The translations under genes and the position numbers were made by a program. The notes beneath the pieces are model-generated. The model was given only the letters and a program-made list of their open reading frames with translations, was not told the origin of the DNA and did no database searches. Shown in pieces: positions 2,759 through 39,085 of a stretch of 43,379 nucleotides of DNA. The stretch is from a virus: positions 1-43,379 of the IMG/VR virus record IMGVR_UViG_3300009164_004238; one strand, given 5' to 3'. Position 1 is the stretch's first letter; every line of letters starts with the position of its first letter.

Positions 2759-3486
2759 AATTTATTTATTTCTTCCATATCGTAATATACGTTAACGTCT
2801 GTTTTTGGACAATGATCAAAAACAGAAATATCAATTTCAATGTTGTTACCTTGCATTATTTTTTTAATCAAATCAAATAATACAAAATTATTTTCGTCTG
2901 ATAAATGATTTTGTAATCTATCTTCTCGTTCAAAATGCATACCTTTGTGCGGAATATTGTAAAATTCTCTTTCTAACTCGTTTACCATGCCTAAATTAAA
3001 TTCGTCAGCACAATTAATATACGGATTAGAATTTCTAGTTCTACTCTCAACCATACACGGTAGCATAATTAATTTAATATTATGTTCTGCACATACGTTT
3101 ATAATTTTTTCAATTATAGCATCGTGAACAAATATATCAAACTCGTCAGTTTGAAGGTACTTATAATATTGTTCTGCTGCCTTAATATGTTTATAATACA
3201 TCTTTGTTTCGATGTTTGGCATGCTTAATTGATGTTCAACTACAAACAAATTGCAAATGCACATATCTACAGGAACATCGGTATAAAGTCTTCCAGGCGC
3301 AGTAATTGTAAAAATAACAGTATCGTAATCTTGATAGTTTTTTATAAAATGTTGATATGCGTGGAACAAACTTGTGCCTGGTTCTGAGTGATTAATGGCA
3401 TTTCCAAATTCGTTGTGCAATAATGTTGTCCAACTAGTTGGACCATTGCTTCCTGAAAAACTATCTCCAAAAATCCCTATTTTCAT
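2755..3486 (-). CDS. SGNH/GDSL hydrolase-like protein
   Basis: This 243-residue protein starts with a textbook block I, FGDSFSG (Ser9 as nucleophile), right after the first beta strand, as in SGNH/GDSL esterases and acyltransferases. A late HLSDEN segment may provide the acid/histidine pair of block V, although the classic DxxH is not clear. There is no signal peptide, so it acts in the cytoplasm. It is joined by ATGA overlaps to the SDR gene downstream and the radical SAM gene upstream. Removal or addition of acyl groups on a sugar or polymer is the likely chemistry, by inference. It is one of six such proteins here. Confidence 0.75.
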   Translation of the reverse strand: MKIGIFGDSFSGSNGPTSWTTLLHNEFGNAINHSEPGTSLFHAYQHFIKNYQDYDTVIFTITAPGRLYTDVPVDMCICNLFVVEHQLSMPNIETKMYYKHIKAAEQYYKYLQTDEFDIFVHDAIIEKIINVCAEHNIKLIMLPCMVESRTRNSNPYINCADEFNLGMVNELEREFYNIPHKGMHFEREDRLQNHLSDENNFVLFDLIKKIMQGNNIEIDISVFDHCPKTDVNVYYDMEEINKL

Positions 3487-4796
3487 TTAAATAACCTTGT
3501 GTATTCTGGTGCAATATTTAATATGCTATGTCCACGTGCTTGATCCAAATACTTTGTAAACTTGACGAACTCGGGAAGTTTATCACTGTAGTCAGCACCT
3601 AACATGTATTTTGTAATACTGTTTAGTATGTTTTCTGCGTTCTTTGCAATGTCTTCTGGATACTCTGCTTTAAACTCAGCAATACATTTAGCATAGTAGT
3701 CGACAATTTCTTGTTTCATGTCTGCAGGTAAAACACGAACGTTAACACGTTTTGGTCCGTGTGCTACATGATGTGTAATAATAGGACGCTTCTTTGTGCT
3801 ATTGATCTTAGTAAAGCCACTGCTGTCTAGCTTCCATTTCATAAAACGAGGAACGTGCCAAATATTGTATGCTGTTACTGTACAGGCCATCCAGGCCATA
3901 ATGTTTGGATTCTTTTCTGCATATTCGTCTAATTTCTGCAAGTTCTTGTATGCCTGTGTCCACTTTAAAGGCCAACGCTGATATTCAACTGTTTCGCCCA
4001 TGCCGTCCATACTGGCACCAACACGCACTTGTTTAAACTGTGTCCACATATCTAATACACGCTGTGGCAGGTTACTCATGTTAGTGTTATACTCAATGAT
4101 CATCTTCTTACTTTGACCAGCATCAATGCATTTTTGCAAAAACTCATAATGACGTTCAATCATCATTGGTTCTCCGCCGGCCATATAAACATGCTTGATG
4201 TTTGGAATGTTAGCTTCTATCTGTGTCCAAAATGATTCACTGTTGTGCCAGTCATAGTCAGTAGTAGATAGTCTGCCACTATCATTGCGCTCTAATTTAA
4301 CTGTACCGTGCGTATCTTTGTATTCATCACTGCCATGATATTCAGTCCATTGTTCATACCAAGTGTGACTATCAGTAGGGCCGCACATACGGCAAGCAAG
4401 ATTACATAAATTACCAAAACGCAAGTCGTAGTATTCTAAGTTTCTATTTTTAACCGAGCCATCTTCTTCTGTTATATAGCGAGCATCATCTATACTAAAC
4501 TTCCAGTTTTCTAATTCGTATTGTCTGCGACTGTTAAGTCCACTGGCCTCTTCTTGTTGGCATCGGCCACATTCTTGACTCCATTCTCCCACTAGCATAT
4601 TCTTGCGAACTTCTTTCATTAGTGTAGCATTACGAGCAGTTTCCATATTGTCTCTGCCAGCATTATATGGAGTGCCATCTTCGTGTCTAACTACACCTTG
4701 ATTCTCAGTTACATTGGCTTGACAGCATATACGAATGTCGCCATTATTTCGAACAGCTTGGAAGTTCCATGGTATAGGACAAAATGTATTAGTCAT
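3483..4796 (-). CDS. Radical SAM protein with N-terminal twitch-like Cys module
   Basis: This 437-residue protein has the radical SAM cluster motif CxxxCxxC at Cys131, Cys135 and Cys138 and the SAM-binding GGEP motif in YMAGGEPMM (about 206-214). Before the core is a Cys module of the type FCxxPW...CC...CxxC: Cys6, Cys24-Cys25, Cys76 and Cys79. These are candidate ligands of an auxiliary Fe-S cluster, as in twitch/SPASM domains but placed N-terminally. Family members catalyse 5'-deoxyadenosyl-radical reactions on peptides, sugars or cofactors; the substrate is unknown. It overlaps the next radical SAM gene by 8 nt and the SGNH gene by 4 nt. Confidence 0.95.
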   Translation of the reverse strand: MTNTFCPIPWNFQAVRNNGDIRICCQANVTENQGVVRHEDGTPYNAGRDNMETARNATLMKEVRKNMLVGEWSQECGRCQQEEASGLNSRRQYELENWKFSIDDARYITEEDGSVKNRNLEYYDLRFGNLCNLACRMCGPTDSHTWYEQWTEYHGSDEYKDTHGTVKLERNDSGRLSTTDYDWHNSESFWTQIEANIPNIKHVYMAGGEPMMIERHYEFLQKCIDAGQSKKMIIEYNTNMSNLPQRVLDMWTQFKQVRVGASMDGMGETVEYQRWPLKWTQAYKNLQKLDEYAEKNPNIMAWMACTVTAYNIWHVPRFMKWKLDSSGFTKINSTKKRPIITHHVAHGPKRVNVRVLPADMKQEIVDYYAKCIAEFKAEYPEDIAKNAENILNSITKYMLGADYSDKLPEFVKFTKYLDQARGHSILNIAPEYTRLFK

Positions 4797-6159
4797 TTAT
4801 TCTTCCCTTGTATTCTATTGTATCTACTATTCGTTTCCATAAATCAGGCAAGTTTCTTCTTAAGTCTTGTCCTCTTATTTTATCCAAGTCTGCTGTATAT
4901 TCAACAAAAAGTTTTAATTGTTCCTTATCGACTTCTTCTTTGGCATGTAATGCATTTACTACGTTAGTATAAATCCTATACAATCCTAGTTCGGCTAGCC
5001 ATTTTTTGTCATGGTCAACATCACTGTTATTCATTTGTTCCAATAAAGTATCTCTGTGCGTTACTAACTTATGCACTAGTAACTTTTTTGCAGGATATAG
5101 TGTTGGGCTTAGATATTTTGGATCATATAAAATATTAATAATCATAGTAGTAAAATCTGAGCCGTAATATCTAACTAGTACATCCCACCATTCTTTATTA
5201 GATATTTCTTTTTGTAAAGCAAACCACCACTCTAACATTTTATGAAATGTCCATACATTAAAAATACTTAATACAGGAGCCCATTTAATGTATATACGTT
5301 CTGGATCATCTTTTTCTGTTATTAACCATTCTCTTACTGATGCTTCTACAATGTTCCATTCACTAGGAAATCGGATATAATCATTGACTGGGCCCACGCC
5401 ATCGACGCTTAGATTAACAATAACTTTTTTAAATTGTTTAAGACGGCTTAATACTTTTTCTTTTGGTACCCAGCTTGCATTAGAAAAGATGTCTAGTATG
5501 ATTTGATCCTGTCGTCCTGTAGATATAATCATATCGATTGCTTCAATAAAATTAGGATGCAACATTGGTTCGCCTCCTGTAAATTTAATTTCTTCAACAT
5601 CCCTAAAGTCTTCGATGTCCCAGTTATTATCAACGTTAATAACTGTTTTATGAAATTTTCTATCCGAATAATACGACGCAAGTTTATTGTCGTCATCGTA
5701 CCATGTAGTACTTAAACTACCATTACAAGTCCTGCATTTTAAATTACAGTGATTACCAAACGCTAGTTCAATATATCTAATTTTATTTTTTTGATTAGGA
5801 TCAGCAAGTTGCTCTTGGTTGTTTTCATTCCACATCAAATTTGCTTTTTCTCGCATACTTTTATTTTTTCGACGAGCATTTTTAACTTCTGGTAGTGTAC
5901 TAGTTTCTTCTTGATAACATTTTCTACAGCCTGGAACTGGTTTGCCAGCAATAATAGTTTGTCTAATTTCTTCCCACTCGGGCGAGTTTAATGCCCCAGT
6001 AAAAGAAATATTATCAACATTGAACTTGTCAAATTTAAATTCGTTACCTTTAACTTTATAGTCAGGATGTTTAATATCAAAACGGCAGCAAGGTTTTATT
6101 TCTCCTGCTGGTTTAGTTTGAAGATGTATCCATGGGAGAATACAAAAAACATTACTCAT
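4789..6159 (-). CDS. Radical SAM protein with N-terminal twitch-like Cys module
   Basis: I place the start at the ATG of 6159 (456 aa). It has a Shine-Dalgarno AGGAG (6170-6174, minus strand) and gives the standard MSNVFCILPW N-terminus; the longer reading from a GTG at 6228 lies inside the neighbouring gene. Auxiliary-cluster candidates are Cys6, Cys24-Cys25, Cys78 and Cys81. The radical SAM motif is Cys138, Cys142, Cys145 (CNLKCRTC), followed by GNGSLSTTW-like sequence also seen in the protein at 11781-13844. FTGGEPML is the GGE motif. Both junctions are 8-nt overlaps, which implies coupling with the radical SAM genes on each side. Confidence 0.93.
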   Translation of the reverse strand: MSNVFCILPWIHLQTKPAGEIKPCCRFDIKHPDYKVKGNEFKFDKFNVDNISFTGALNSPEWEEIRQTIIAGKPVPGCRKCYQEETSTLPEVKNARRKNKSMREKANLMWNENNQEQLADPNQKNKIRYIELAFGNHCNLKCRTCNGSLSTTWYDDDNKLASYYSDRKFHKTVINVDNNWDIEDFRDVEEIKFTGGEPMLHPNFIEAIDMIISTGRQDQIILDIFSNASWVPKEKVLSRLKQFKKVIVNLSVDGVGPVNDYIRFPSEWNIVEASVREWLITEKDDPERIYIKWAPVLSIFNVWTFHKMLEWWFALQKEISNKEWWDVLVRYYGSDFTTMIINILYDPKYLSPTLYPAKKLLVHKLVTHRDTLLEQMNNSDVDHDKKWLAELGLYRIYTNVVNALHAKEEVDKEQLKLFVEYTADLDKIRGQDLRRNLPDLWKRIVDTIEYKGRIND

Positions 6160-7318
6160 AACTCTTATCTCCTGGAAACAAAGGTAACTTAGTGCCAGGA
6201 GCACGTTTTGGAATCTTACTATCTGCACTACTTACACAACTTGTCCCGCCACAAGGCATTGGCTTGTCATATAACTTAAATCCAGTTTCAATATGTCCTA
6301 AAGGAACTTCGCTACAACTATAACTACGTTTTACTGTGCCGTCTGGTTCGCGAATAATAATACTGCGAAATCCACTACTACACTCCCATTTATTAAAGTT
6401 ATTAAAGTTAAAAGCATTAAAACGTTCTGCTTGATCCATAAACCAAGGCTTGCCTTCTTTATCAACAAACTCAATTTGATAGTGTGGATCAACATCGACT
6501 TGTTTCTTACGCTGAGTATCTGCCTTGTCAATCATGAACGTAGGTTTCGGACGTTTCACTAATCCAGACTTTAATGCTTTTTCTTCTGTGTAAGCACGTT
6601 GTGGCATACCATTGTGTAACTTAGCCAACATCTCAGGTGTATAACCATCTACCACACGGCTTGCAGTAGGATCGCTTTGTGGCTTGAGTGTTACGTTGAT
6701 ACCTCTATTGTGAAAGTATAAACTTAGATCATAAATCTCATTAAACTGTTCTGGCACCATAACCATATTAATAGTTATTTGTGTGTCATATTCTTGGCAT
6801 AAGACTAGTTTGTCAGCAAACTCTTCTACTTTCTTATCTGTGTCAACATGTTCACGATGGCAACTTGCTGTAATACTAGCACGATGAAAATTTTTAACTG
6901 CTGGCACATATTGTTCTTCAAACCATTTCATAGGACGACTCATGTTACTGGTCATATGCACACTGGTATAGTTTGTGTTAGCCGCATCATTATTTAAATG
7001 ATTAAGGATGTCAATGTAAGCTGGATGGAATGTGGGTTCTCCTCCACTTAGACTAAAGTGGAAACTATTAAATCCATTTTCTCTAGCTTGACGTTTTATC
7101 TCATCTACAGTATGTAACATTAAAGGTGTAGGGCGATGGTCCTTTGTGTCACTGCGAGCATACGGCCAGCAATAACTACAACGATAGTTGCAGTATCGTC
7201 CTAATAGCCACGATACGGTAAACATATCGCGGTATAGCATTGTTCTTTGACCAACTCTAACTAAGTCGTTAAATGGAATCTTAGTAAAGTCATATTCACT
7301 GGTTTTTAAATCACTCAT
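6152..7318 (-). CDS. Radical SAM protein with C-terminal Cys cluster
   Basis: The 388-residue product has an N-terminal radical SAM core with CNYRCSYC (Cys43, Cys47, Cys50) and LSGGEPTF as the GGE motif. Unlike its neighbours it lacks the N-terminal FCxxPW module. Instead, the last 80 residues hold Cys in WECSSG, YSCSE, MPCGG and TSCVSS, which may ligate an auxiliary cluster. It resembles the protein at 21839-22810 in this arrangement (CTYHCSYC core, late WDC...CxMC). Overlaps of 8 nt join it to the small gene at 7311-7544 and to the radical SAM gene downstream. The substrate is unknown. Confidence 0.92.
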   Translation of the reverse strand: MSDLKTSEYDFTKIPFNDLVRVGQRTMLYRDMFTVSWLLGRYCNYRCSYCWPYARSDTKDHRPTPLMLHTVDEIKRQARENGFNSFHFSLSGGEPTFHPAYIDILNHLNNDAANTNYTSVHMTSNMSRPMKWFEEQYVPAVKNFHRASITASCHREHVDTDKKVEEFADKLVLCQEYDTQITINMVMVPEQFNEIYDLSLYFHNRGINVTLKPQSDPTASRVVDGYTPEMLAKLHNGMPQRAYTEEKALKSGLVKRPKPTFMIDKADTQRKKQVDVDPHYQIEFVDKEGKPWFMDQAERFNAFNFNNFNKWECSSGFRSIIIREPDGTVKRSYSCSEVPLGHIETGFKLYDKPMPCGGTSCVSSADSKIPKRAPGTKLPLFPGDKSYE

Positions 7319-7544
7319 TTTTTTCGTAGATAAATTTTACTTCTTTGCCTGGTCCTGCTTCGCTGGGCAGGCCGCCATACTCTTTAATATACCAAGTAAT
7401 AGCAGCCTTGTACCATCCTGTGCTATCATGCCTACTTTCTTTATTAAACTTATATATGTTATCATTGGTTGCTTCCATGCTACTAATAATTCTAGCGGCT
7501 TCTAATTGTAACACTCTTAAGGGCATTGTGTCAAGGTCTATCAT
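7311..7544 (-). CDS. Small unidentified protein between radical SAM genes
   Basis: This 77-residue protein has no Cys and no membrane segment. Its first 30 residues are predicted helical (LRVLQLEAARII). A central aromatic stretch WYKAAITWYIKEYGG precedes a Gly/Pro-rich turn and a charged end (GKEVKFIYEKNE). It is tied by ATGA to the radical SAM gene upstream and by an 8-nt overlap to the one downstream. Its production is therefore coupled to theirs, and it could be a partner, carrier or substrate peptide. No leader-peptide motif such as a recognisable RiPP recognition sequence is evident, so the role is open. Confidence 0.75.
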   Translation of the reverse strand: MIDLDTMPLRVLQLEAARIISSMEATNDNIYKFNKESRHDSTGWYKAAITWYIKEYGGLPSEAGPGKEVKFIYEKNE

Positions 7545-8743
7545 AGGTCCAAATTATTCATTAGTTTAATTAATTTATCTGTTTTCTTAACAGCTTGTTT
7601 GCGCTCTAAAAATTCCTGTGCCAGTTGTTTATAGTTATCATTGTATGCTGTACCAATTCTAAATATCATATTATCAAGAAACGTGATAAAGTTTTCGGGG
7701 TCTACATGATTAGAATTGGCAATATTATCCAACACAACTTTTTTAGCCTGTTCCATGTATTTAAGATAATATATCGGAAGATTTGCAATATCCAATTCAG
7801 TGGGTACACTTATAAAATTTCCGTACCACGTAAATTTTTTATTTGGTGCGTGAGTTTTGAATTGTTCATATATCCAAGAAATATATTGTGAAAAACTTTT
7901 TAAGTTAAAAATATTAACAGTAGGACTTAGTACTATTAATTCTGTCTTAGGATGTGTTATGTATCTAACAAAGTTTTCTTGAAAACAAGTCCAATCTAAA
8001 CCGTGTCTTATAAGTTCAGCATCCTCTCCAAAACTTTCATTGCTAATGCCAATTCCCCATGACAAATTACTTGTGTCCATTTTAGCAACAATTTTATCCA
8101 TCAAGAATCGTTTACTATTGGCATTAGTACATATTTCTAATCTAATATTTTTACTGCTATTCTTTGAGCACTCATCAATAAAATCTACTAACTCATAAAA
8201 ACGATTACTGGCAGTAGGCTCTCCACCTAAAAATATAAAAATTATCTTATTAGCATACAGTTCTTTATCGATATGATTTTTAATCCACTGCTTAAAAACT
8301 GTATAATCATCCTCATTAGTATTATCTACTATTTCAATGCCTTCTTCTTGCGCTATCTTACTGCTACTACCAGACCAACAATATATGCAAGACATATCAC
8401 ATATTCTATCAGGTCTAATTTCTATATAACTAATATAGCTATCACCCTCTAAGCTATTTCTTTTATCTTCAATAAAGTTATTATCCCATTTATTGGCCCA
8501 TTCTTTAAAGGCGCTATTACCTTTATTATAATCATTCCAACAGTTATTACAATCAATATGTTTAACATTTTTTAAACTTGCAATTCTTCTATCTGTTATG
8601 TACTCATTTTTACTAATAAAATCTTCAGTTAGTTTGTCGGGAAACTGATGTGAAGCAGCCTTGCAACAATGGCTTACTGATCTTAATTCAAAATTAATAT
8701 TAATATCTGTCCAACTTTTAGAACAGTAAGTTTCGTTGCTCAT
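7541..8743 (-). CDS. Radical SAM protein with N-terminal twitch-like Cys module
   Basis: A 400-residue protein with N-terminal Cys7, Cys26-Cys27, Cys65 and Cys68 (CNNCW), spaced as in the other N-twitch proteins of this window. The radical SAM motif is CDMSCIYC at Cys115, Cys119 and Cys122, and the GGE motif reads FLGGEPTA. The usual FCxxPW start is altered to YCSKSW, so this is a divergent member. The C-terminal 100 residues are helical and charged. It is coupled by ATGA overlaps to the nitroreductase-like gene upstream and the 77-residue gene downstream. The function is presumed to be a radical modification of an unknown substrate. Confidence 0.9.
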   Translation of the reverse strand: MSNETYCSKSWTDININFELRSVSHCCKAASHQFPDKLTEDFISKNEYITDRRIASLKNVKHIDCNNCWNDYNKGNSAFKEWANKWDNNFIEDKRNSLEGDSYISYIEIRPDRICDMSCIYCWSGSSSKIAQEEGIEIVDNTNEDDYTVFKQWIKNHIDKELYANKIIFIFLGGEPTASNRFYELVDFIDECSKNSSKNIRLEICTNANSKRFLMDKIVAKMDTSNLSWGIGISNESFGEDAELIRHGLDWTCFQENFVRYITHPKTELIVLSPTVNIFNLKSFSQYISWIYEQFKTHAPNKKFTWYGNFISVPTELDIANLPIYYLKYMEQAKKVVLDNIANSNHVDPENFITFLDNMIFRIGTAYNDNYKQLAQEFLERKQAVKKTDKLIKLMNNLDL

Positions 8744-9483
8744 ATACTAACTATCATAGTTTCTTGCTTTTGATTGATAGTAAAACTTTCTTCGCGTCCG
8801 CCACGTTTAAAATGCGTTTCCCCGTCTAAATATTCTTCTTTTACTGATACATTTTTACCTGCATATATATCAACAATTTTTTTATCTTTTGGTCCAATAC
8901 ATATAGCTACTACCGCTTCAACTGGTTGTTGAGAAAAATCATCTCCAAATTCTTTTGCAAGTAACCGAACAAATTGTTTATTGGATAATACATCTTCCAT
9001 ACCGCAGGCAACAAATGCCGTGCCATAACCAAGATCCTCAGCAGTTAACTGTGCGTATGTGGCGCTAATCATTGCGTCACGTACAGCACCTTTGACCATA
9101 ACATATTTAGATACAGGACTTTTAACTTCGCTGTATACTCTGTCATATACTTCTGTTCCTTTACTTTCTACAAGATCAACCATTTGATGCTCTGGAGCAG
9201 GGTTTGTTATATAAAGTAATACCAACGGGGCTTTAGTTTGTAGCAGATATATTTCTTTACCAAGTTCGTCATTACACGATGTAATATTATCACATAGTTC
9301 TGACTTTAATCTTTTACCGGCTGCAGAGTCTGTCAACGCAAACACTTTGTATCCATATATTTTGTTTTTACTTGGTGCACGACGGGCACTATCCAAAATA
9401 GTTTGAACATCGTCTTCGTTGATTTCGTCGGTCATTAACCTAGTAGTAAATCTAGATTTAATTAATTCATTCACTGTTGACAT
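8740..9483 (-). CDS. Nitroreductase-family (FMN) oxidoreductase
   Basis: A 247-residue protein with the nitroreductase fold signature: an N-terminal basic motif KSRFTTR (9-15), then a helix and APSKN (36-40) before the KVFAL strand, and late LGYGTAFVACG and VAICIGPKD segments typical of the FMN pocket. Family members use FMN and NAD(P)H for two-electron reductions, and some variants oxidise or dehydrogenate substrates. The start is strongly supported by AAGGAG and by the late promoter at 9518-9525. As first gene of the unit leading into four radical SAM genes, it might process the same substrate or supply reducing equivalents; both are inference. Confidence 0.85.
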   Translation of the reverse strand: MSTVNELIKSRFTTRLMTDEINEDDVQTILDSARRAPSKNKIYGYKVFALTDSAAGKRLKSELCDNITSCNDELGKEIYLLQTKAPLVLLYITNPAPEHQMVDLVESKGTEVYDRVYSEVKSPVSKYVMVKGAVRDAMISATYAQLTAEDLGYGTAFVACGMEDVLSNKQFVRLLAKEFGDDFSQQPVEAVVAICIGPKDKKIVDIYAGKNVSVKEEYLDGETHFKRGGREESFTINQKQETMIVSI

Positions 9484-9511
9484 TTTCTCTCCTTAAATTA
9501 TTATATACGCA

Positions 9512-9525: not shown

Positions 9526-9545
9526 GATAATAACCGGAGAATAGC

Positions 9546-25503: not shown

Positions 25504-25504
25504 T

Positions 25505-27246: not shown

Positions 27247-27254
27247 ATTTTTAC

Positions 27255-30518: not shown

Positions 30519-30853
30519 CGTTTGTATGCTCTTATCTGTTTTATTTTATTATCTTGATCAAACTCTATAACGTCAACTACCTGTGCTACTATTGAATTAT
30601 TAATTATAACTTTTATTTCTGCTATAACTGTGTCTAATCCTACAGCAATTTTATCGACATCAATTCTTATTGCTTCAACCGAGTTAAAGAAGTTTTGATT
30701 AAATTTTAAAATATTATCTTTACCTACTATTTGCACTTCCCAGTCTGTTAATACGATGCTATCACTGAACAATACTTCTAATGATGCGGCATCTTTTTTA
30801 CAGAAGCTTTGAAAGTACATTAATGCTATTTGGCTCTGTGTTGGATTACTCAT
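30515..30853 (-). CDS. SnoaL/NTF2-like small protein
   Basis: A 112-residue protein with the pattern of the SnoaL/NTF2-like cone fold: N-terminal helices ending in FCKKDAASLEVLFSDSI, a VGKDNILKFNQNFF segment, then beta strands closing with VVDVIEFDQDNKIKQIRAY. Members are isomerases, cyclases, dehydratases or binding proteins. No specific catalytic residue can be assigned. It is coupled by ATGA to the AroE-like gene and by an 8-nt overlap to the nucleotidyltransferase-kinase gene, so it likely serves the same pathway. Confidence 0.75.
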   Translation of the reverse strand: MSNPTQSQIALMYFQSFCKKDAASLEVLFSDSIVLTDWEVQIVGKDNILKFNQNFFNSVEAIRIDVDKIAVGLDTVIAEIKVIINNSIVAQVVDVIEFDQDNKIKQIRAYKR

Positions 30854-32378
30854 TATCTAGCTCCGCAAATAGTTTAATGCCTAAGTACCATAAGAATATA
30901 TCAAATGGCGCAGTATGCAATGGACTCATGTTCCAAAAAATTATTGGTATCAGTTGTTGTACTTTTTTGTAGTCTAAATTGTTAGTCAAAATATACTTCT
31001 TTAAACGTTCCTGATATACTGTAATATGTTCTACACTAGGGATACTCAGCGTTACACTATCATTATCAATTTCAATGTTAAAGTTATGATTCTTAATGTT
31101 AGCGTAGTTAATAATTAACCCACCTGCCATCTTGGCCAAGTCATAGTATATATCACCATATTCAACTATGCCTGCAAACTCGTGTCGCCAATCTATAATT
31201 TTAAACTCTCCGCTGTCACTGATTACGATATTATCAAACTGCAAATCACCGTGTAAGAATCCCGGGCGTGTAACAGTAGATAGATATTCCCAATCTATTT
31301 TATTGAGATAATAACTATAATCTTTGACTGTAACACCATCAATGTTAGTAACATTTTTTATGTTAGGATACTTTTCCAAAAACTTACTAATACGGGCTAG
31401 ACTTTTTGTTTTATAAAACTCAATACTTGCGGCATGTATGTCAGCATCGCAGTCTTTCCATACATTTGTTTCTAGCCAATTTAATAATTCACCGAATGCC
31501 ACCGGGTTATTAAACTCGTAGAGCGTCTTACCAGGAAAGAAATCATAGGCCATGTAGTTACCGCTGTGCGTACAGTTACCGGGGAATACGTAAGGATTAG
31601 CCAGTACTTTATCATATTTCTTTTTTGCTATGCTATTATCTAGCCACCATTTGACAACTCTATTGTTACATATATAAGTTACTTCGTCTTTTTTTGTAAA
31701 GTCGAACTTTTGACTTTTACTTAATTCAGTTTGATAAATTGTAGGACTACCAAAGTCTAACCACGAGTTAAGACTGGCTGTGTCACTGCCTAATTTAATA
31801 ATACCAATAAATTCATTGCTGTTACTTGATTCTAGTTTAGCAAAGAAATCTGTGTAATCATTAATATACATTAAACCTGTAAATGCTGTCCAGAATTTAG
31901 GAGCACGTTGTTTAAATCTAATATCTGTAATACGGAAACTATTACCAGTATTAAACATTGTATATAGATGTGTGTCTTGTTCAGGAACTTGCTTGACAAA
32001 ATAACAATCATTATTACTGACTTTGCTTACCACTTGTTCGTCAAAGTATGTATCGCAAGGTACATACCAAAAAGGTGTATTGATTAAATCTCGACATTGC
32101 AATAACGTATATCCAGTACCAGACTTTGCACTAGTCCAATCATCAATGTCTATGAATTCAATGTTTCTGTCGCTGTATGCTACACTACAAAAGTCTATAA
32201 TTTGTTCTTTGAAATAACCTACAGGTATAATAAATTTTGTATCTTTGGGAAAACTATCAATAATATGTGCCAACACCGGCTTATCTTTATAAGGTAATAA
32301 TGCTTTATTAAGATTTTTGGTATAATTGCCCATTCTACTACCCGTGCCAGCAGTAGGTATAATAACAGTATTACTCAT
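30846..32378 (-). CDS. Sugar-phosphate nucleotidyltransferase fused to APH/choline-kinase-like kinase
   Basis: The ATG at 32378 gives 510 residues starting MSNTVIIPTAGTGSRMG and an 8-nt overlap with the cupin gene. Residues 1-220 are a nucleotidyltransferase: GTGSRMG (11-17), the Lys-containing NKALLPY (24-30) and CDTYFD (108-113). Residues 230-510 are an aminoglycoside-phosphotransferase/choline-kinase-like domain with HGDLQFDN (376-383), IDWR (395-398) and EYGDIYYDLA. The pair would phosphorylate a small alcohol or sugar and then activate it as an NDP or CDP derivative. The substrate is not identified. Confidence 0.88.
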   Translation of the reverse strand: MSNTVIIPTAGTGSRMGNYTKNLNKALLPYKDKPVLAHIIDSFPKDTKFIIPVGYFKEQIIDFCSVAYSDRNIEFIDIDDWTSAKSGTGYTLLQCRDLINTPFWYVPCDTYFDEQVVSKVSNNDCYFVKQVPEQDTHLYTMFNTGNSFRITDIRFKQRAPKFWTAFTGLMYINDYTDFFAKLESSNSNEFIGIIKLGSDTASLNSWLDFGSPTIYQTELSKSQKFDFTKKDEVTYICNNRVVKWWLDNSIAKKKYDKVLANPYVFPGNCTHSGNYMAYDFFPGKTLYEFNNPVAFGELLNWLETNVWKDCDADIHAASIEFYKTKSLARISKFLEKYPNIKNVTNIDGVTVKDYSYYLNKIDWEYLSTVTRPGFLHGDLQFDNIVISDSGEFKIIDWRHEFAGIVEYGDIYYDLAKMAGGLIINYANIKNHNFNIEIDNDSVTLSIPSVEHITVYQERLKKYILTNNLDYKKVQQLIPIIFWNMSPLHTAPFDIFLWYLGIKLFAELDNE

Positions 32379-32811
32379 GTTCGTAACTAACTCTTCCATG
32401 TGTCCTACCACCGTCATCTTGTAAACGAATTACATCATCCAGTTCGGTGGTACTGGTTTCCATAAACTCTAAATCTGTCGTGGCCATAACACGATGAACA
32501 TAACCTGGAGTTACATTAAATACAACACCTTCTTTAAGATCGATAACTTCAAATGTAGATTCGTATTCTTCAACTTGTTTACTAGTCATGCCATGTTCTA
32601 AAAACTTTGCAATATCTAATGGTTCCTTACTACGATGTAATACACCCGTGCCGCTTAAAACATAGTTAGTTTCTATTTTGTATTCGTGTACTTGTAAACT
32701 AGTCCTATTACCTGCTTTAAATAAGATTCGTTTGCTGGCGTAAGGAGTAGCAGAGCCATCAGCAATCCACAATTCATAACCCCAGTGTTTAGTTACTTTT
32801 TTTATGCTCAT
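32371..32811 (-). CDS. Mannose-6-phosphate isomerase-like cupin
   Basis: A 146-residue single cupin with KHWGYELW at the front, VHEYKIETNYVLSG (His42, Glu47), PGYVHRV (His106) and the ELDDVIRLQDDGGR tail. The tail resembles the type II phosphomannose isomerase C-terminal domain and cupins of polysaccharide clusters. Metal ligands are present, so sugar-phosphate isomerisation is plausible. It starts 23 nt inside the end of the SGNH gene upstream and precedes the nucleotidyltransferase-kinase gene, as in nucleotide-sugar pathways. Confidence 0.85.
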   Translation of the reverse strand: MSIKKVTKHWGYELWIADGSATPYASKRILFKAGNRTSLQVHEYKIETNYVLSGTGVLHRSKEPLDIAKFLEHGMTSKQVEEYESTFEVIDLKEGVVFNVTPGYVHRVMATTDLEFMETSTTELDDVIRLQDDGGRTHGRVSYEHE

Positions 32812-33442
32812 TTGTATTTCCTATTATAAAATTATACATTCTATTTGCTACTTCGATATGGCCTTGTTCATTAAAATGCCAATCTCCCTGCGGTGAATTA
32901 AACAATGGATCTAACCAATATTCTTTATGTAAGTCTAACCAATTTTTCCAATTGATATAATCTCCGGGTGCCGTAATTAAATTATTAACTTTTGTATACT
33001 GTGTTTCATCAATGAGCCAAGTATACACATTTTTATATCCAAGGTGCTGTAATGTTTGAATTTTTTTATGCCATCGACTTTCGTTGTGTATAACAATAAT
33101 TTCACATCCTTTTAGTAATAAACCCAGGTCGCCTTGGCTATCTCGTTTTACTAATTCTTCAAATGTAACTCTACTAAAAAAACTAGGATTAATTATAACA
33201 TAGTCTTCTTTATCCCAGGTCATTATATCTTCGTCTATCCTGTCGTTAATGTAATTCCAACCAGCGCCGGCACAGCTTTTAGTTATGCATTTAAGATTTA
33301 ATTTATTAGCAAGGTGCGTTCCCCAATAATCTGTTCCATGAAAGTATCTAGATTTATCTGCATTGAAAATAGTAGGTAACTCATTAGGAACAAGTCCAAA
33401 AGGTTCACTAAAACTACAACCATAAATCCAAAGTTTATTCAT
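32789..33442 (-). CDS. SGNH hydrolase-like protein
   Basis: With the ATG at 33442 (ATGA overlap; an ATG two codons upstream is equally possible) the product has 217 residues. It has YGCSFSEPFG with Ser10, SCAGAGWNY (block II, Gly and Asn), INPSFF (block III) and GDWHFNEQGH (Asp187, His189, His194) as block V. No signal peptide is seen. It probably acts on acyl groups of a sugar intermediate or polymer in the cytoplasm. It is coupled to the next SGNH gene upstream. Confidence 0.78.
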   Translation of the reverse strand: MNKLWIYGCSFSEPFGLVPNELPTIFNADKSRYFHGTDYWGTHLANKLNLKCITKSCAGAGWNYINDRIDEDIMTWDKEDYVIINPSFFSRVTFEELVKRDSQGDLGLLLKGCEIIVIHNESRWHKKIQTLQHLGYKNVYTWLIDETQYTKVNNLITAPGDYINWKNWLDLHKEYWLDPLFNSPQGDWHFNEQGHIEVANRMYNFIIGNTNEHKKSN

Positions 33443-34236
33443 TTCCATTCATTTTCTTTTAACTTTGCTAATACTATATTGTATGCTTCTTCATGTCCTT
33501 CTGGGCCAGTGTGCCATGTTTTAATCTCGTCAGGATATTTGACACTCAATTCACCCCACGATAGTCTAACTAAATTTTCTTCATCCATATACTTAGCATA
33601 CCCTTCGGGCTCTTGAGTTAACATTAAATGTTTAATATTATTTTTCTTTAACAATCGATGTGCCATTGTCATCACTCCAATACTATGTAGTCGATTTATC
33701 CTAGGATCATGTACAGTCGTAGCAAAGTCATACAATGTTTTAATACGTTCTTTTGGTTCATTTTGAAATCTAGCGTAATAGCCAGAATATTTGTCATCTT
33801 TTCTAAATGTTTCCCAATAGTCGATTACGCCCATATAGTTTTCAGTGAACATGCCTCCTTTATAGTTAGGATCATCTTGCATAGGATGTTTGTCTAATAC
33901 TTGATGATATGTTTCTACTCTATAAGGAGGGTATTGATGATAATTAACATCAACATTGGTTATTTCATGTCCAAACTCATAGTCCAGTGGAAACCAATCA
34001 ACTCTGTCGTAACTTGTATGACTTACTAATACGATGTCATCTTTAGTGGCAATATTTTTTACTGCATATTCTGCCTGTAAGTATATACTAAGATTTGTAC
34101 TCGATCCTTTAGCAAGATTAACTAATTCTCGTTTAAGTTTTTTTGATAGTAATACTCCATAAGGTTCGGTATGTAAATCTATACACCCAATACCAATATT
34201 AAAACTGTCACCGCATATTATTAATTTTTTAGACAT
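33439..34236 (-). CDS. SGNH hydrolase-like protein
   Basis: The ATG at 34236 (8-nt overlap with the upstream stop) gives 265 residues. ICGDSFNIG carries the block I Ser11, NLAKGSSTN the block II region, VSHTSYDR the block III-like site, and TWHTGPEGHEEA the late His residues. This is a different subgroup from the tandem SGNH pair at 16926-18378 and from its immediate neighbour. The role is presumably ester transfer or hydrolysis on a glycan. Confidence 0.75.
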   Translation of the reverse strand: MSKKLIICGDSFNIGIGCIDLHTEPYGVLLSKKLKRELVNLAKGSSTNLSIYLQAEYAVKNIATKDDIVLVSHTSYDRVDWFPLDYEFGHEITNVDVNYHQYPPYRVETYHQVLDKHPMQDDPNYKGGMFTENYMGVIDYWETFRKDDKYSGYYARFQNEPKERIKTLYDFATTVHDPRINRLHSIGVMTMAHRLLKKNNIKHLMLTQEPEGYAKYMDEENLVRLSWGELSVKYPDEIKTWHTGPEGHEEAYNIVLAKLKENEWK

Positions 34237-35026
34237 TGCCGACTCTTTCTTCCCACCATTCATACTGTTTAGATCTTAGATCTTTAACGCTATATTCGAT
34301 ATTTAACATTCCATTAGTAAACATTTCTGTTGTATTATCTCTTAAAATTACAGTCTCTAAATAACGCTGTAGCAAATCATCAATGGTTATTCCTCGTTCG
34401 ATTAAATATCTTGCTAATAGACTATGTACATCGTACTTGTGTATAATAGTATCATTGTAAAATTGTACATAATAATCAAAAAATCCGGCTAATAGTTTAA
34501 ACATTTCCCAATCAACCATTAAACAGATATCTGTTGTTGACAAGTAACCACTATTAATATCTGTATTTAATGGGCCTACACCATGTACATGTTTAGGTAT
34601 CGGTAGTTGACTATCAAAAGTTCTTATAGGTATTCGGTGAGTAAGATAAAGATCTGGGCGTATTAATAATATCTTATTATATTGTTTTGTTGACTGAACA
34701 ATTTCTAATAACTGATAAGCATATTTCCATTTAAATGCCATTCCTATAGTAGGATGATATACTAGTTCAGGATGTGATTTTAAAGTCTGTTCAGAAAACA
34801 TCATTTTGGTATTTAACAAAATGTTAACAGATGAAAATACCACACTAATTTTATCAATGACACTTGATATAACATCGATTGTTGTATTTTCTTGCAATGT
34901 AGTAGATTGCGGATTATAAATTTTATCCTCTGTAATTAAATAATAGTCAGCGTCAATTAACCAACTACTAGATGCATTGACTAGATGCCGCATAACACCA
35001 GAAACTATTACTGCTGTATTTGTCAT
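34229..35026 (-). CDS. Glycosyltransferase-like protein (SG-start family)
   Basis: A 265-residue protein starting AVIVSGVMRHL, with a WLIDADYYLIT strand and NKILLIRPDLYLTHR. It parallels the proteins at 35945 and 36843, which have SGQxRxW near the start and YDxxIKxRxD in the middle. The RPD triplet takes the place of a DxD-like metal site. No membrane segment is seen. The family relation is my reading of a recurring pattern; sugar transfer is likely but not shown. The stop overlaps the next gene by 8 nt. Confidence 0.65.
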   Translation of the reverse strand: MTNTAVIVSGVMRHLVNASSSWLIDADYYLITEDKIYNPQSTTLQENTTIDVISSVIDKISVVFSSVNILLNTKMMFSEQTLKSHPELVYHPTIGMAFKWKYAYQLLEIVQSTKQYNKILLIRPDLYLTHRIPIRTFDSQLPIPKHVHGVGPLNTDINSGYLSTTDICLMVDWEMFKLLAGFFDYYVQFYNDTIIHKYDVHSLLARYLIERGITIDDLLQRYLETVILRDNTTEMFTNGMLNIEYSVKDLRSKQYEWWEERVGNV

Positions 35027-35961
35027 TAATATAATTTGTATTGTTTAATATAATTAGCCAATTCTTTTGCCCAAGCTTCGTGTGCTTCGGGGCTAGGATG
35101 CCAGCCAACTAAAGGAGGAACAACTGTATTCATAGGATTTTCAATATAGCTCTTAAACGTATTAGCAGGTTGATTTTTTTTATAGAATCTAATTGGATTT
35201 ATACTATCCCATAAAGCAGAATAATCATTAATATGTATAATACGTTTTAAAGGATTTGTAGTCTGTTGATATTCGTGGCCACCTATTCTTCCTTTAATTT
35301 TTTCTATCTCATCTTTAATATTTAAATCTTGCCATTGGCCCGGAGATGCATTTGGTGTTTGATAAAAGCTATTAAAACACATCCACTTAATATTATGTGC
35401 TTCGCAAAAATTTTGTAATTGTAAAACATTTAATACATAACGCGGAATATATTCTTCGGCGTTCCATAAATATGCTACATATAATTCCCAAAATTTTTCT
35501 TGTTCTTTACTTTGGAAATGCGGTACTTGTGGCCATAGTCTAAAAGGATGACTTAGCTGTATACTATCATCTATGTACCAAAAACTATTTCGTTCAGGAC
35601 TACTCCATCCAATTATAACAAATAAATTATCAGTAGGAATATTATTTGCTAGATACTTTTGAGAGATGTAATTTATTGTTCTGCGTAAAATAGTACCGTT
35701 ATCATCAGCCGGCCAACTAAGATTTGTCACTGGAACATTTAATAATTTTGCAAGATGTGTTGGAAATATTTTTGGAATTCGATATGCGTCATTTTCTTTT
35801 AAAAAATCATATGCACCGGGATGTGTCGTAGAATCATATTGCTTTGATATTTCTGGATCTGTAATTTCACAACCAAAAACCCAACTATCACCGTCGCAGA
35901 TTATTTCCGGAGGCGTATTACCATCAAACAAATCAATTAAACTTTTAGATATACCACTCAA
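35026..35961 (-). CDS. SGNH hydrolase-like protein with TTG start
   Basis: A 311-residue protein read from a TTG at 35961 because no ATG precedes the active site. AGGAG lies 8 bases upstream of the TTG. Block I is CDGDSWVFG (Ser26), block II NLSWPADDNGT, block III VIIGWSSPERN, and block V GWHPSPEAHEAW near the C-terminus, giving a full SGNH set. It is the longest and most complete of the six SGNH proteins here. It overlaps the glycosyltransferase-like gene upstream by 17 nt. Confidence 0.8.
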   Translation of the reverse strand: MSGISKSLIDLFDGNTPPEIICDGDSWVFGCEITDPEISKQYDSTTHPGAYDFLKENDAYRIPKIFPTHLAKLLNVPVTNLSWPADDNGTILRRTINYISQKYLANNIPTDNLFVIIGWSSPERNSFWYIDDSIQLSHPFRLWPQVPHFQSKEQEKFWELYVAYLWNAEEYIPRYVLNVLQLQNFCEAHNIKWMCFNSFYQTPNASPGQWQDLNIKDEIEKIKGRIGGHEYQQTTNPLKRIIHINDYSALWDSINPIRFYKKNQPANTFKSYIENPMNTVVPPLVGWHPSPEAHEAWAKELANYIKQYKLY

Positions 35962-36862
35962 ACCATTTACTCCTAATTTCGTTGTAATTATATACAGAAT
36001 CTAATTTTGCTTCTACTGCGGTGCTTCTCATTACTGCATACTCAAAAGGACGACCGCCTTCTGGATGAATACTGAGTTTTGTCATGTACTTGTATAATAA
36101 ACATCCCGGACCGTACCATAAGGTTGGATCCAAATTTAACCCATCTTGATTCTTTATTTGATATGTCATGGGTTTTTCTACATTATGAGTATCATATAAA
36201 TCGCCAATTAAATCCATTGTCGGGCTATCTCCATAAAATAAAACATCGTCAAAATTGTTATAATTAAATTCACTTGCAAATTTACTAATAGGAGTCGAAG
36301 TATAACACACGCCTGGCCACACTCTTTGTAAGGGAAATTTGTTTGCTGGATTATATATAACATCTAGTCTTGCTTTAATTACTAAGTCATATTGAAAACT
36401 GTGCTGTAGTTCATACTCTCGTTTTAATAATAAACTTCTTGCAAAACTATAAAACATCGGGTCCCACGCTCTATCAAATCTTTCTTTTACATATTTTTCT
36501 ACAATAATATCTTTTGGATTGTATGCGTTTTTTATATCATCATCATCATCATGTACTACATCAGTATACACAGTAATATCAGTTTTTGGTAATCTCCAAG
36601 AATTGGTGTCCCAGGTGTGAATAAAATAATCAGTTTCAACATCTAATCCAATTTCAGGATGAGGATATTCATGTTCAAAGAATCTTTTTATGTTGGCTAA
36701 TGACTCTCTCCAATAGCGAGCTTGCCCGCTGAAACATACTGCTATTCTAAATTTCTTTTTAGGTGGCGGATCCGGTGGAGGTGGGATATCAATCTTAGGT
36801 GCTACTACGTTTAGTTTGCCATTAGTCGAATCTATTTCAATATTAAATAAGCTCATGTCCAC
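35945..36862 (-). CDS. Glycosyltransferase-like protein with proline-rich linker
   Basis: A 305-residue protein from a GTG at 36862 that has AAGGAG 6 bases upstream; an ATG two codons later is the alternative. Residues 1-22 form a short beta-like segment. Residues 25-37 are PPPPDPPPKKK-like linker, and the catalytic-type domain starts at FRIAVCFSGQARYW. It includes DYFIHTWDTN and YDLVIKARLDVIY. A run of five Asp (HDDDDD) comes from a TCA-rich triplet repeat near 36540. It is homologous to the next gene upstream. Confidence 0.7.
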   Translation of the reverse strand: MDMSLFNIEIDSTNGKLNVVAPKIDIPPPPDPPPKKKFRIAVCFSGQARYWRESLANIKRFFEHEYPHPEIGLDVETDYFIHTWDTNSWRLPKTDITVYTDVVHDDDDDIKNAYNPKDIIVEKYVKERFDRAWDPMFYSFARSLLLKREYELQHSFQYDLVIKARLDVIYNPANKFPLQRVWPGVCYTSTPISKFASEFNYNNFDDVLFYGDSPTMDLIGDLYDTHNVEKPMTYQIKNQDGLNLDPTLWYGPGCLLYKYMTKLSIHPEGGRPFEYAVMRSTAVEAKLDSVYNYNEIRSKWFEWYI

Positions 36863-37688
36863 CCAATTCTCCTTCTAAGCCGGATTTTATTTTTCGATTT
36901 AAATAGTCCTGACCCCTATAAATTTTAGGATCAACTGTTAACGGACTTATTTCAATGTTAAACATCTTTGCATAAAAATATAACGCATGTTCGGTGCCGA
37001 TTAAATTCTTATTAAACGTTCGTTGGCCTATGACCGGCAGCCATCTATAAAACTCACATATCCTATTAAATGTAACGCTATCAGCAAACCAAAATACATC
37101 ACCCAATCTATGAAAGGGAAACTGTACATCATCCTTAGCAGTATGGCAGCTATAAAATGTATTACTATTTGGATAAACTAAGTCTTTGGAAACAAAATGT
37201 TTAATTTGATAATCTTCAAAAAACATATCAGTTCTCATCCTAATACATACATCATATCTAAAATTGTTGTCATATTCATATTTCTTTTTTAGATGGCTGG
37301 CATGCATTATACTATAAAATTGGCCTGCGCACCATTCCAGCTTAGTAATACCATGTTCATTTATATGTGGGAAATTTCTATCACGTGTTTCTTGAATTTT
37401 ATTTTTATTTGATGTTTCGTCTTCAAATAAAAATGAAATAGGATTCAACGAAGAAACTATACTACGCTTTTCATCTTCCGATATTGTTTCGCCTGGGACC
37501 GTCATATAATCCCATCCTTCGTGCATTAATAATCTATGCGGCGGCGTATTATAATCCCACATGTGGAAAAATATATCAACTGAATCAACTTTATAATTAG
37601 CTTTTATTGTTTCAATAAATTTGTGCCAAGTTAAATGACATTTTTCCCATGTTCGTGGCTGGCCGCTTAAACAAATAGCAACTCTCAT
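36843..37688 (-). CDS. Glycosyltransferase-like protein (SGQ family)
   Basis: A 281-residue protein beginning directly with VAICLSGQPRTWEKC, then DIFFHMWDYN, YSIMHASHLKKKYE, YDVCIRMRTDMFF and a late EHALYFYAKM. The order matches the neighbour at 35945, so the two are paralogues, and the one at 34229 is a more distant third. RTD (in RMRTDMFF) may be the metal-binding acidic triplet. It is linked by ATGA to the radical SAM gene upstream. Donor and acceptor are unknown. Confidence 0.7.
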   Translation of the reverse strand: MRVAICLSGQPRTWEKCHLTWHKFIETIKANYKVDSVDIFFHMWDYNTPPHRLLMHEGWDYMTVPGETISEDEKRSIVSSLNPISFLFEDETSNKNKIQETRDRNFPHINEHGITKLEWCAGQFYSIMHASHLKKKYEYDNNFRYDVCIRMRTDMFFEDYQIKHFVSKDLVYPNSNTFYSCHTAKDDVQFPFHRLGDVFWFADSVTFNRICEFYRWLPVIGQRTFNKNLIGTEHALYFYAKMFNIEISPLTVDPKIYRGQDYLNRKIKSGLEGELGGHELI

Positions 37689-39085
37689 TTAGAATTTTTC
37701 CATTTAGTGTAGTATGGCTCAAATTCTGGAAACGTTTCTAAAAAGTTAGTGCCGCGACGTTTATCATGTTCATCAACGAATGCAACTAAATCTTTTTGAT
37801 ATACTGTTACTTCCTCGGGATCTTTTTGATTCATAGTTAATTCATATATGCGTTTAAATTTTTCTGCCTCCCATTTAAAGAATCCTTGATTAGCACTTCC
37901 GTACCATTCACCATTTTCTAAATTACGATACATCATTGTTACTTGATCAAAAATATACTCTTTAGCCCATGACGATGGCATAACATGAAAGATACTTTGA
38001 TGTGCCGGGTGTCTTAGAAACGGTGCATCTAAAATTAACGGGGCATGAACTGCATCGTGTCCTCCAAATTCGTTTTTAATAGCTAATACATCTTGTAAGA
38101 ACAACGAATAAGTGGGAATACTAAGCACATTGTACGTACTCATGATAGTAATAGTACACTCGGGTATTTCTTTTAACACTCTGCGAATATTACTTAACCA
38201 TAAATCATAATTTAAGCCGTCACGTATATATTCTGCTGCCTTACCATGAGCATCACAGCTTGTAAAGATTTTAAACTTTTTAACTTTCTTTTCTTCACAG
38301 ATAATTTTAACCTTTTCAAGGAACTTGTCAAATAACTGTGATGGTACACACAAGTTACTATTAATACTCAAATGTATATCTGGGTTAGGATTCTCGATCA
38401 CATAATCAAGAACTTTAAAGGTATCCTTACTTAGTAACGGCTCGCCGCCGGTTACACGAAAATGCTGTAACTCTTTATAAACTGTGGGCCACCATTTCCA
38501 AAATGCGTCCACGTAAGGGTTATATTGATTATGCGGGATTGGCATTTGGTCAATTTGTTTTAGTCCTGCAATATCATTAAAGTTGCCATGAGTAGGATAA
38601 GGACCGTGTTGTTTAATTTCTTCCATCCATAGGCTACTCACTTGTGGACTACAATAGCTACATTTAAAATTACAGACGTTACTAAAACTAACTTCTAAAT
38701 AACTTGGAGCAACATCTTGATCCCAGGGCATCTTACTTACTTCTTCAAAATGAGGCTTTGCCCATACGTCATAACTTTTGTAAATTCTATCGCTAAGAGC
38801 ATCGGGGGCGCTGTCTTCTACTTTCCAACAATAGTCGCATTCTTTTGGACGTACACCTTCTAACATTAATTTACGTTGTTCTTTTTTGAACTTAGTATTA
38901 TGTAACGCACTAGGATTGGCAGCTAATTCATCTAAAGGAATTTTGTGTGTAGTAGGATGATGACAACTATGGTTGTGTCCTGTCTGTAAATGCAATGTTA
39001 CTTGCTTCCATTTAGCAATACAAAAACTTGGACTAACATCGTTAATCTTTTTTTGAAATGCAATGATATCTTTATTATGTTCCAT
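37685..39085 (-). CDS. Radical SAM protein with N-terminal twitch-like Cys module
   Basis: A 466-residue protein that stands apart from the other 12 radical SAM genes, among glycosyltransferase-like genes. Cys22, a single Cys41 in HSCHHP instead of CC, Cys83 and Cys86 (CDYC) form the N-terminal module. The core is CNFKCSYC (Cys138, Cys142, Cys145) with VTGGEPLL. The ending KRRGTNFLETFPE matches the protein at 18371. His-rich HNHSCHHPTTH near the second Cys could replace a cysteine ligand. It is 1 nt from the DxD gene upstream. Confidence 0.94.
   Translation of the reverse strand: MEHNKDIIAFQKKINDVSPSFCIAKWKQVTLHLQTGHNHSCHHPTTHKIPLDELAANPSALHNTKFKKEQRKLMLEGVRPKECDYCWKVEDSAPDALSDRIYKSYDVWAKPHFEEVSKMPWDQDVAPSYLEVSFSNVCNFKCSYCSPQVSSLWMEEIKQHGPYPTHGNFNDIAGLKQIDQMPIPHNQYNPYVDAFWKWWPTVYKELQHFRVTGGEPLLSKDTFKVLDYVIENPNPDIHLSINSNLCVPSQLFDKFLEKVKIICEEKKVKKFKIFTSCDAHGKAAEYIRDGLNYDLWLSNIRRVLKEIPECTITIMSTYNVLSIPTYSLFLQDVLAIKNEFGGHDAVHAPLILDAPFLRHPAHQSIFHVMPSSWAKEYIFDQVTMMYRNLENGEWYGSANQGFFKWEAEKFKRIYELTMNQKDPEEVTVYQKDLVAFVDEHDKRRGTNFLETFPEFEPYYTKWKNSK

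Follow-up and report, generated by a model that had tools for sequence, protein, structure and literature searches.

Three radical SAM enzymes form a fixed core within a variable radical SAM cassette of a phage and recur together in Bdellovibrionota

The IMG/VR virus record IMGVR_UViG_3300009164_004238, analysed here over positions 1 to 43,379 (the window), carries thirteen radical S-adenosylmethionine (SAM) genes in one cassette. The core of this cassette consists of one enzyme from each of three classes, encoded by g21 (18371-19771), g26 (22807-23979) and g09 (6152-7318), all on the minus strand, and the radical SAM paralogues that surround this core change. The cassette is real, is under purifying selection and is most likely located in a jumbo phage.

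Profiles built from alignments sort the thirteen genes into three classes (g07, g16, g21, g26 and g09 are themselves rows of these profiles). Class I, with seven members (g07, g08, g11, g15, g16, g21 and g43), is characterized by an N-terminal twitch domain (N-twitch) and four N-terminal cysteines. The four members of class II (g17, g24, g26 and the split gene g23+g22) have C-terminal cysteines and carry CGNYGDP, or a variant of it, in place of GGEP, and the two members of class III (g09 and g25) have GGEP and C-terminal cysteines. Within the core, g21 reaches 431 bits against the NCBIfam model NF033640, g26, in which CGNYGDP replaces GGEP, matches PF04055 at 40.5 bits, and g09, which ends in a C-terminal cysteine cluster, matches PF04055 at 52.7 bits and has a mean column identity of 81% over 17 phage sequences.

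Relatives of g09 were identified in viral contigs, where 124 were found and 80 were kept; whole-record searches covered 50 of these 80 records, mostly the longer contigs. The window's own contig is one of the 50 records, some are near-copies of each other, and the records are fragments, so absences from them mean little. At E 1e-100, g21 has a single match in each of 41 of the 50 records; at E 1e-50, g26 is present in 36, all of which are among the 41 with g21. In 79 phage loci (L002-L080), 453 radical SAM proteins fall into 139 clusters at 60% core identity; a count of 501 proteins and 160 clusters includes some records twice. The window's own contig (L001 and L081-L085) was excluded from the relative and cluster counts, and alignment A3 was made without L073, L079 and L080. 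The commonest clusters in the 79 loci are those of g09 (79, by selection), g21 (31), g26 (13) and g07 (13). Relatives of the other ten radical SAM genes at 50% identity or more are present in 0-20 loci each, with most loci showing about 10 kb on either side of g09. A sequence-only reading of the window had stated that phages usually carry none or a few radical SAM genes, which does not hold for this group, as the N-twitch model matches 50 of 50 records at E 0.001. The number of matches per record ranges from 1 to 23, weak cross-matches to other classes included, and 49 of the 50 records exceed the cut-off of the model. In a control set of well-known genomes, matches were obtained in 14 of 14, and none of the 14 exceeded the cut-off.

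The same three genes are also found in bacteria. A scan for bacterial N-twitch loci with one short pattern, which is a sample of their taxonomic spread, resulted in at least 39 loci; among the 39 listed, 22 have Bdellovibrio-, Oligoflexia- or Bacteriovorax-like titles. Orthologues of g09, with 55-66% identity, are present in 17 of 290 Bdellovibrionota genomes, and orthologues of g21 (E 1e-100 or better) are present in 15 of the 290, every one of them among the 17 with g09. At an identity of at least 45%, g26 is found in 15 of the 17 g09-bearing genomes and in two others, with three weaker cases; in the g09-bearing genomes its identity is 47-52% over the N-terminal part. Fisher's exact test, applied to genomes that are not independent, gives p values of 3e-23 for the pair g09 and g21 and 4e-21 for the pair g09 and g26. 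The genes are also close together: in all 15 genomes with both, g21 is on the same contig as g09 and at most 3.1 kb from it, the distance between g26 and g09 is no more than 5 kb in 13 of 15, and all three are present in 14 genomes. In the phylum of Poseidonocella, the sole other phylum tried, g09 was found in none of 398 genomes. The sequence-only reading had also proposed a multi-step radical modification pathway. This proposal is supported for g09, g21 and g26, which recur together in phages and are close together in Bdellovibrionota, and it is not supported for all thirteen enzymes as one linear pathway.

The contig with the cluster is 937 kb long in one bacterial genome, where the cluster follows a gene that resembles seryl-tRNA synthetase by eye, and 494 kb long in another, where it adjoins a MoxR-type ATPase gene. 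Because of these contigs and neighbours, both copies look chromosomal. In a midpoint-rooted tree of g09 with long branches, 64 phage rows, two of them from metagenome-assembled genome (MAG) contigs classed as phage, are separated from 11 bacterial rows by a branch with 100/99 support. At most, this tree suggests that the phages received g09 from a bacterium. Two public MAG contigs, PBYV01000081.1 (L153-L156, labelled Acidimicrobiaceae) and NZGL01000008.1 (L157-L160, labelled Gammaproteobacteria), were set aside as probable mis-binned phage: the former has a ThyX-like gene, and the latter has phage-flank genes and encodes a 3504-aa protein. In the Bdellovibrionota genome G144, a radical SAM gene with a B12-binding domain (L164, 15596-17143) was observed a few kb from g09 and g21. 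A large expansion, with 19-37 N-twitch model matches each, was observed in the bacterial genomes G054, G058, G051 and G060.

The thirteen radical SAM genes of the window, twelve intact and one split, had been recognized by eye, and every one was recovered as an open reading frame with a CxxxCxxC motif. Their radical SAM membership was confirmed by profile search, in which PF04055 matched 11 of the 13, nine of them above the curated cut-off. The two others, g23 (20098) and g24 (20779), match NCBIfam radical SAM models below cut-off and no Pfam model, and reach 91.7 and 177.6 bits, respectively, against a profile of g26 orthologues in which neither is a row. Among phage-locus proteins of at least 200 aa, CxxxCxxC is present in 523 of 536 with radical SAM resemblance compared with 14 of 893 without it, so the motif in the thirteen is not due to chance. 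The description of these proteins as diverged paralogues also proved correct. The top identity among the thirteen cores is 38.6% (pairs aligned by blastp at E 1e-10), which rules out recent tandem duplication. By identity, the nearest relative of each of the thirteen is found in another phage and not in the window, with a margin over the window paralogue of just 1-4 points for g23 and g25. For 10 of the 13 genes, comparison of the window with the closest orthologues gave ratios of nonsynonymous to synonymous substitution (dN/dS, calculated by the Nei-Gojobori method, NG86) of 0.025-0.27; several of these genes are close to saturation at synonymous sites. No qualifying partner was available for g43, and g23 and g25 were left out. 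These values indicate that the radical SAM enzymes are kept functional.

The class I genes are on the minus strand, except for g15 on the plus strand. NF033640 (twitch domain-containing radical SAM protein) names a subfamily without a reaction, and its cut-off of 170 bits is exceeded by 6 of the 13 proteins: g21, g07 (437 aa, 3483-4796, 383 bits), g08 (4789-6228, 286 bits; PF04055 37.9 bits), g15 (11781-13844, 251 bits, with about 230 extra N-terminal aa), g16 (13801-15057, 325 bits) and g43 (37685-39085, 341 bits). The divergent member g11 (7541-8743) remains below the cut-offs of both NF033640 (153.3 bits) and PF04055 (26.5 bits), and the four N-terminal cysteines are present all the same; the six remaining proteins belong to the other classes. 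For g07, which reaches 513.7 bits against the class profile of which it is a row, orthologues are 95% identical and dN/dS is 0.025-0.043.

All genes of classes II and III are on the minus strand. In class II, g17 (15054-16199) matches PF04055 at 39.9 bits and the g26 profile at 231 bits, and g24 extends over 20779-21846. The other class III gene, g25 (21839-22810), matches PF04055 at 35.1 bits and the g09 profile at 60.4 bits. The split of the class II gene (19821-20769) is genuine in this sequence: g23 stops at 20098 and g22 goes on in the +1 frame over an A6 run, and this frame change is identical in a longer contig, G001. The g22 part matches the g26 profile weakly (E 1.7e-4, 12.3 bits). 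Decay, slippage or an assembly error may lie behind the split.

The cassette had been considered to be carried by a phage, and the 90-kb contig G001, which has phage replication and virion-like genes, supports this. It is 99.995-100% identical to window positions 2500-43379 and 96% identical to positions 372-2499. One flank encodes a family-B DNA polymerase, FolE (GTP cyclohydrolase I, 127.6 bits), a UDP-sugar dehydrogenase and a cytidylyltransferase, and the other flank encodes a (GY)n-repeat protein, a protein with tail-fibre/virion PHROG matches and a 2385-aa protein. A bacterial chromosome as the source of the window is ruled out by these replication and virion-like genes. Beyond the window, G001 has a QueE-like gene and another two N-twitch genes, which brings the predicted phage total to about 16 radical SAM genes.

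The nearest relatives of the G001 polymerase are found in Sinorhizobium phage Phosso (469 kb, 48.9%) and Agrobacterium phage Atu_ph07 (490 kb, 46.2%), with one 94-kb record among the 12 polymerase matches listed. In a related record, G005, gene order is almost unchanged over the two thirds of the cassette on the tail side, and the gp23 of this record (a 314-aa stretch) is nearest to that of Phosso (70.9%), followed by Vibrio phage 2.275.O and PA5oct-type phages. The gp23 capsid gene is present in 15 of the 50 related records, one of them scarcely above the cut-off, and was not found in the 90-kb fragment G001. Both the window (43 kb) and G001 are fragments, and the gp23-bearing relatives are 232-400 kb in size. 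Most likely, the window is a fragment of a T4-related jumbo phage, and it is best explained as a variable modification region between the replication and tail genes of that phage. At the DNA level, window positions 1-8000 match phage records in ThyX pieces alone, in 10 records. When 50,697 cultured phage records were searched by tblastn at E 1e-5, g09 and g44 had no match, g21 was found in two records at 21%, g26 in four at about 25-29%, and g08 in nineteen Vibrio phages, all below 26%.

Phages with many radical SAM genes are already in print, and the three-class core was not found there. The T4-like viral genome TARA_ERS488813_N000010 (183 kb) has 12 radical SAM genes and an Fe-S carrier gene (Nishimura 2017, PMC5332604); it can be compared with the window by description only, and the accessible part of that paper proposes a role in Fe-S metabolism and does not name classes, a core or a bacterial counterpart. 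In the Aeromonas giant phage 332-Vera (PQ474292), eight radical SAM genes are located in a structural block with tail fibre genes, a number called highly unusual in the part of the report available (PMC12390700). This phage is a chimallin-bearing, phiKZ-related jumbo phage (PMC12390700), and its likeness to the window is one of description. The host recognition cluster of pelagimyophages is hypervariable, about 45 kb in size, and contains tail fibre and glycosyltransferase genes; according to the accessible text, two pelagimyophage genomes differ in this cluster by radical SAM cassettes (PMC7029224). Pelagimyophages are another T4-like group, in which the cluster lies between VrlC and gp14 (PMC7029224), whereas in the window adjacency to virion-like genes alone is shown. 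As far as the accessible text goes, phage genes named ahbD seldom contain both radical SAM domains (PMC9301287). For the three-class core or its Bdellovibrionota counterpart, no report was found in the open-licence literature, which was covered in part and checked mostly at the level of listings.

Smaller sets are present in cultured phages. In Pelagibacter phage Mosig EXVC030M (MT647606), a smaller block contains nitroreductases, a carbamoyltransferase, Asp/Arg hydroxylases, an ArnB-like sugar aminotransferase and three genes annotated as MoaA-like, two of them with CxxxCxxC; a gene with a tail fibre annotation is located about 7 kb from this block. Among eight Mosig proteins tested, one matches the g26 profile (79.7 bits), and the N-twitch, g21 and glycosyltransferase-A (GT-A) profiles had no match. 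Vibrio phage K566 (255 kb) has three N-twitch genes close together; in the five K566 proteins tested, the g09 and GT-A profiles had no match and the cross-matches to g26 are weak, at most 36 bits.

The explanation that we favour, tentatively and with slightly less than even confidence, is that within the variable modification region the trio builds a surface or virion glycan. The changing genes around the trio comprise additional radical SAM paralogues, GT-A-like and sugar-activating enzymes, a carbamoyltransferase, SGNH-like proteins and oxygenases. In this proposal, g21, g26 and g09 would act in turn on one scaffold by hydrogen-atom abstraction, which on a sugar or sugar-like unit would lead to dehydrogenation, epimerisation, deoxygenation or a carbon-carbon change. 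GT-A enzymes would transfer the unit, and the variable enzymes would tailor it with O-carbamoyl, O-acyl, hydroxyl or methyl groups. The product would coat the infected cell, thereby blocking other phages, or coat the tail itself, and its variation would follow the arms race over host recognition. More broadly, and with less confidence, it is possible that a three-class radical SAM assembly line has passed between jumbo phages and Bdellovibrionota, its product being a radical-built surface or virion modification, and that phages swap further members of the same classes around the core as an arms-race device. A fixed trio inside a variable set narrows the enzymes worth assaying to three, and Bdellovibrionota with copies of it may offer a system that can be cultivated. 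Should the product prove to be a glycan or a virion modification, phages would be applying oxygen-sensitive radical chemistry to the cell surface, and new enzyme reactions could be found.

A glycan is favoured because of the GT-A-like family, the carbamoyltransferase, the nucleotidyltransferase-like g35, DUF6071, the nitroreductase, the hydroxylase and the similar Mosig block with its ArnB-like aminotransferase. The virion-like genes adjoining the cassette, together with the UDP-sugar dehydrogenase and cytidylyltransferase genes of the longer contig, are also in line with it. The genes g44 (39087-40058, minus strand), g28, g29 and g30 form one family with an invariant DxD motif, for which a PDB sequence search gave no match; g44 also has no PHROG. 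An AlphaFold2 model of g44 has a predicted local distance difference test score (pLDDT) of 89.3, and its best GT-A fit is B4GALNT1 (Z 10.9, root-mean-square deviation 2.9, 144 residues aligned). The fold of this model is of the GT-A kind, and the family, with its DxD, may transfer sugars.

Several observations weigh against this explanation. The nucleotidyltransferases MobA and IspD, which have a similar fold, also fit the g44 model, with Z 8.9-9.2, and Foldseek returned no match at E 0.001 for g44, with the nucleotidyltransferase HddC at the top rank. Among Bdellovibrionota genomes with g09, the neighbourhood was retrieved for 11, and GT-A family genes were found in 4 of these. The sugar-acting equivalog cut-offs of NCBIfam were reached by no radical SAM protein of the window (g22 left out). 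In Z score, the g21 model (pLDDT 80.7, low across the CxxxCxxC loop) ties the sugar enzymes DesII (9.2) and BlsE (9.1) with CteB (9.0; 5why, which we take to be CteB), SkfB (8.9) and anSME (8.8), and SkfB is ranked first for g21 by both Foldseek and sequence profile. The phage records were found through g09, so they come without a g09-less control, and several are near-copies. In Bdellovibrionota, g26 is on another contig in G099 and 21 kb from g09 in G144, and it is present without g09 in G103 and G311; four of the 17 g09-bearing genomes were known from the scan beforehand, and 17 of 290 may overstate the share. In addition, several gene labels were given by eye, without a family match. With its tied matches, the g21 model decides nothing about the substrate.

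The glycan has four competitors. The best of these, which is nevertheless unlikely, is protein modification, in which radical changes are made on virion proteins, such as the adjoining (GY)n-repeat protein, and shape or protect an adhesin. This would fit the position of the cassette against virion-like genes and the resemblance of g21 to the peptide enzyme SkfB in the sequence profile and the Foldseek ranking. A (GY)n protein is found beside g48 in three of five records examined, the window's own included, but in the two others g48 has no such adjacent protein, and the fetched Bdellovibrionota stretches contain no run of at least four GY. Moreover, the many small-molecule and glycosyltransferase-like enzymes are left unexplained.

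Less probable again is DNA hypermodification, in which the radical SAM and GT-A enzymes decorate phage DNA, perhaps at a 7-deazaguanine base. The longer contig encodes FolE and a QueE-like protein (phrog_2076, E 3e-51), a protein named DpdA-like by eye is present in 31 of the 50 phage records, and one member of a 27-protein family, found in 19 of 80 loci on the cassette strand, matches QueC at 23.8 bits (cut-off 22). However, searches of Pfam, NCBIfam and PHROGs gave no match for the DpdA-like protein. Of the Bdellovibrionota genomes with g09 and g21, 10 were searched for this protein, nine of them also with g26, and all 10 lack it; it is likewise missing in records that have the trio, for example G009 (172 kb) and G012, which are possibly fragments.

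Somewhat more doubtful is auxiliary metabolism, in which the enzymes support the Fe-S or cofactor metabolism of the host, as is proposed for T4-like genomes that have Fe-S carriers (PMC5332604). An A-type Fe-S carrier (PF01521) is present in 15 of the 50 records (G004, G017, G036, G042 and 11 others), but it was not found in the other 35, which are fragments, and the 139 clusters in 79 loci are more in line with a variable product than with a fixed cofactor.

Radical SAM enzymes with twitch or SPASM domains are common maturases of ribosomally synthesised and post-translationally modified peptides (RiPPs), and g10 is a small conserved neighbour, but a RiPP pathway making a toxin or signal is the least probable account and is unlikely because 39 of the 44 adjacent gene pairs overlap or are at most 4 nt apart, with a widest gap of 62 nt, where a hidden precursor gene hardly fits; g10 is also present in just 31 of 80 loci and unmatched in the fetched Bdellovibrionota stretches, where called frames were at least 70 aa, and no exporter or protease was recognized among the Pfam family matches of the window.

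The remaining genes of the window, from the glycan perspective favoured above, include multiple candidate tailoring enzymes; they are on the minus strand unless stated otherwise. On the replication-side flank, g04 (1331-2215, plus strand) encodes ThyX (PF02511, 198 bits). It is followed by g05 and g06 (2204-3486), which by eye resemble short-chain dehydrogenases and SGNH proteins, respectively, and have no Pfam match; the g05 family is present in 60 of 80 phage loci. The 77-aa g10 (7311-7544) is located beside core radical SAM genes. Next to g11 are g12 (8740-9483), which is nitroreductase-like (PF00881, 29 bits, cut-off 23.5), g13 (9546-10286, plus strand), which is aspartyl/asparaginyl hydroxylase-like (PF05118, 35.8 bits) with a family in 35 of 80 loci, and g14 (10159-11784, plus strand, 541 aa), which has neither a Pfam nor a PHROG match. 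By eye, g18 is oxygenase-like and g19 and g20 are SGNH-like (16112-18378); none has a Pfam match over cut-off, with g19 reaching 17.9 bits for DUF6071 (cut-off 27).

Next to the core gene g26, g27 (23979-24830) is methyltransferase-like by eye, has no Pfam match and belongs to a family found in 17 of 80 loci. The GT-A-like genes g28, g29 and g30 (24823-27230), which share the invariant DxD and the fold modelled for g44, reach 290-390 bits against the family profile, in which the three are included. A NodU/TobZ-type carbamoyltransferase is encoded by g31 (27255-28727; PF16861 182.5 bits, PF02543 119.8 bits). Family searches identified g32-g34 (28724-30853) as GatZ/aldolase-like, shikimate dehydrogenase N-like and SnoaL-like. 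For g35 (sugar-1-phosphate nucleotidyltransferase-like and kinase-like) and the cupin g36 (30846-32811), all matches are below the curated cut-offs. Among g37-g42 (32789-37688), g40 matches DUF6071 (PF19547, 43.6 bits), and the others, which are SGNH- or glycosyltransferase-like by eye, have no family match over cut-off. No Pfam match was obtained for g45 and g46 (40039-41835), which have counterparts in the same order in G005.

On the longer contig of the window, FolE, the QueE-like radical SAM protein and the by-eye DpdA-like protein without a family match were observed (L081 12235-13755, L081 19045-19872 and L082 2676-3536), and genes of these three kinds hint at deazaguanine DNA in these phages. 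The one member tested of the QueC-like family is L059 8080-8799 (PF06508, weak); no window protein belongs to this family, which perhaps performs an ATP-dependent ligase step.

The tail-side end of the cassette is formed by g47 and g48 (41828-43070), a pair that is also present in G005, G042, G036 and the G057 contig, as well as in the Bdellovibrionota genome G222. The virion-like block then begins with g49 (43125-43379), the 3' end of the (GY)n-repeat protein seen on the longer contig, where the next gene matches tail-fibre/virion PHROGs at E 1e-6, ranked below PHROGs of unknown function. The (GY)n protein, with runs of 5-9 Gly-Tyr repeats, was observed beside g48 in three phages, including that of the window, and is located at 43125-43379 in the window, L085 626-1663, L086 12107-15076 and L159 15696-16871.

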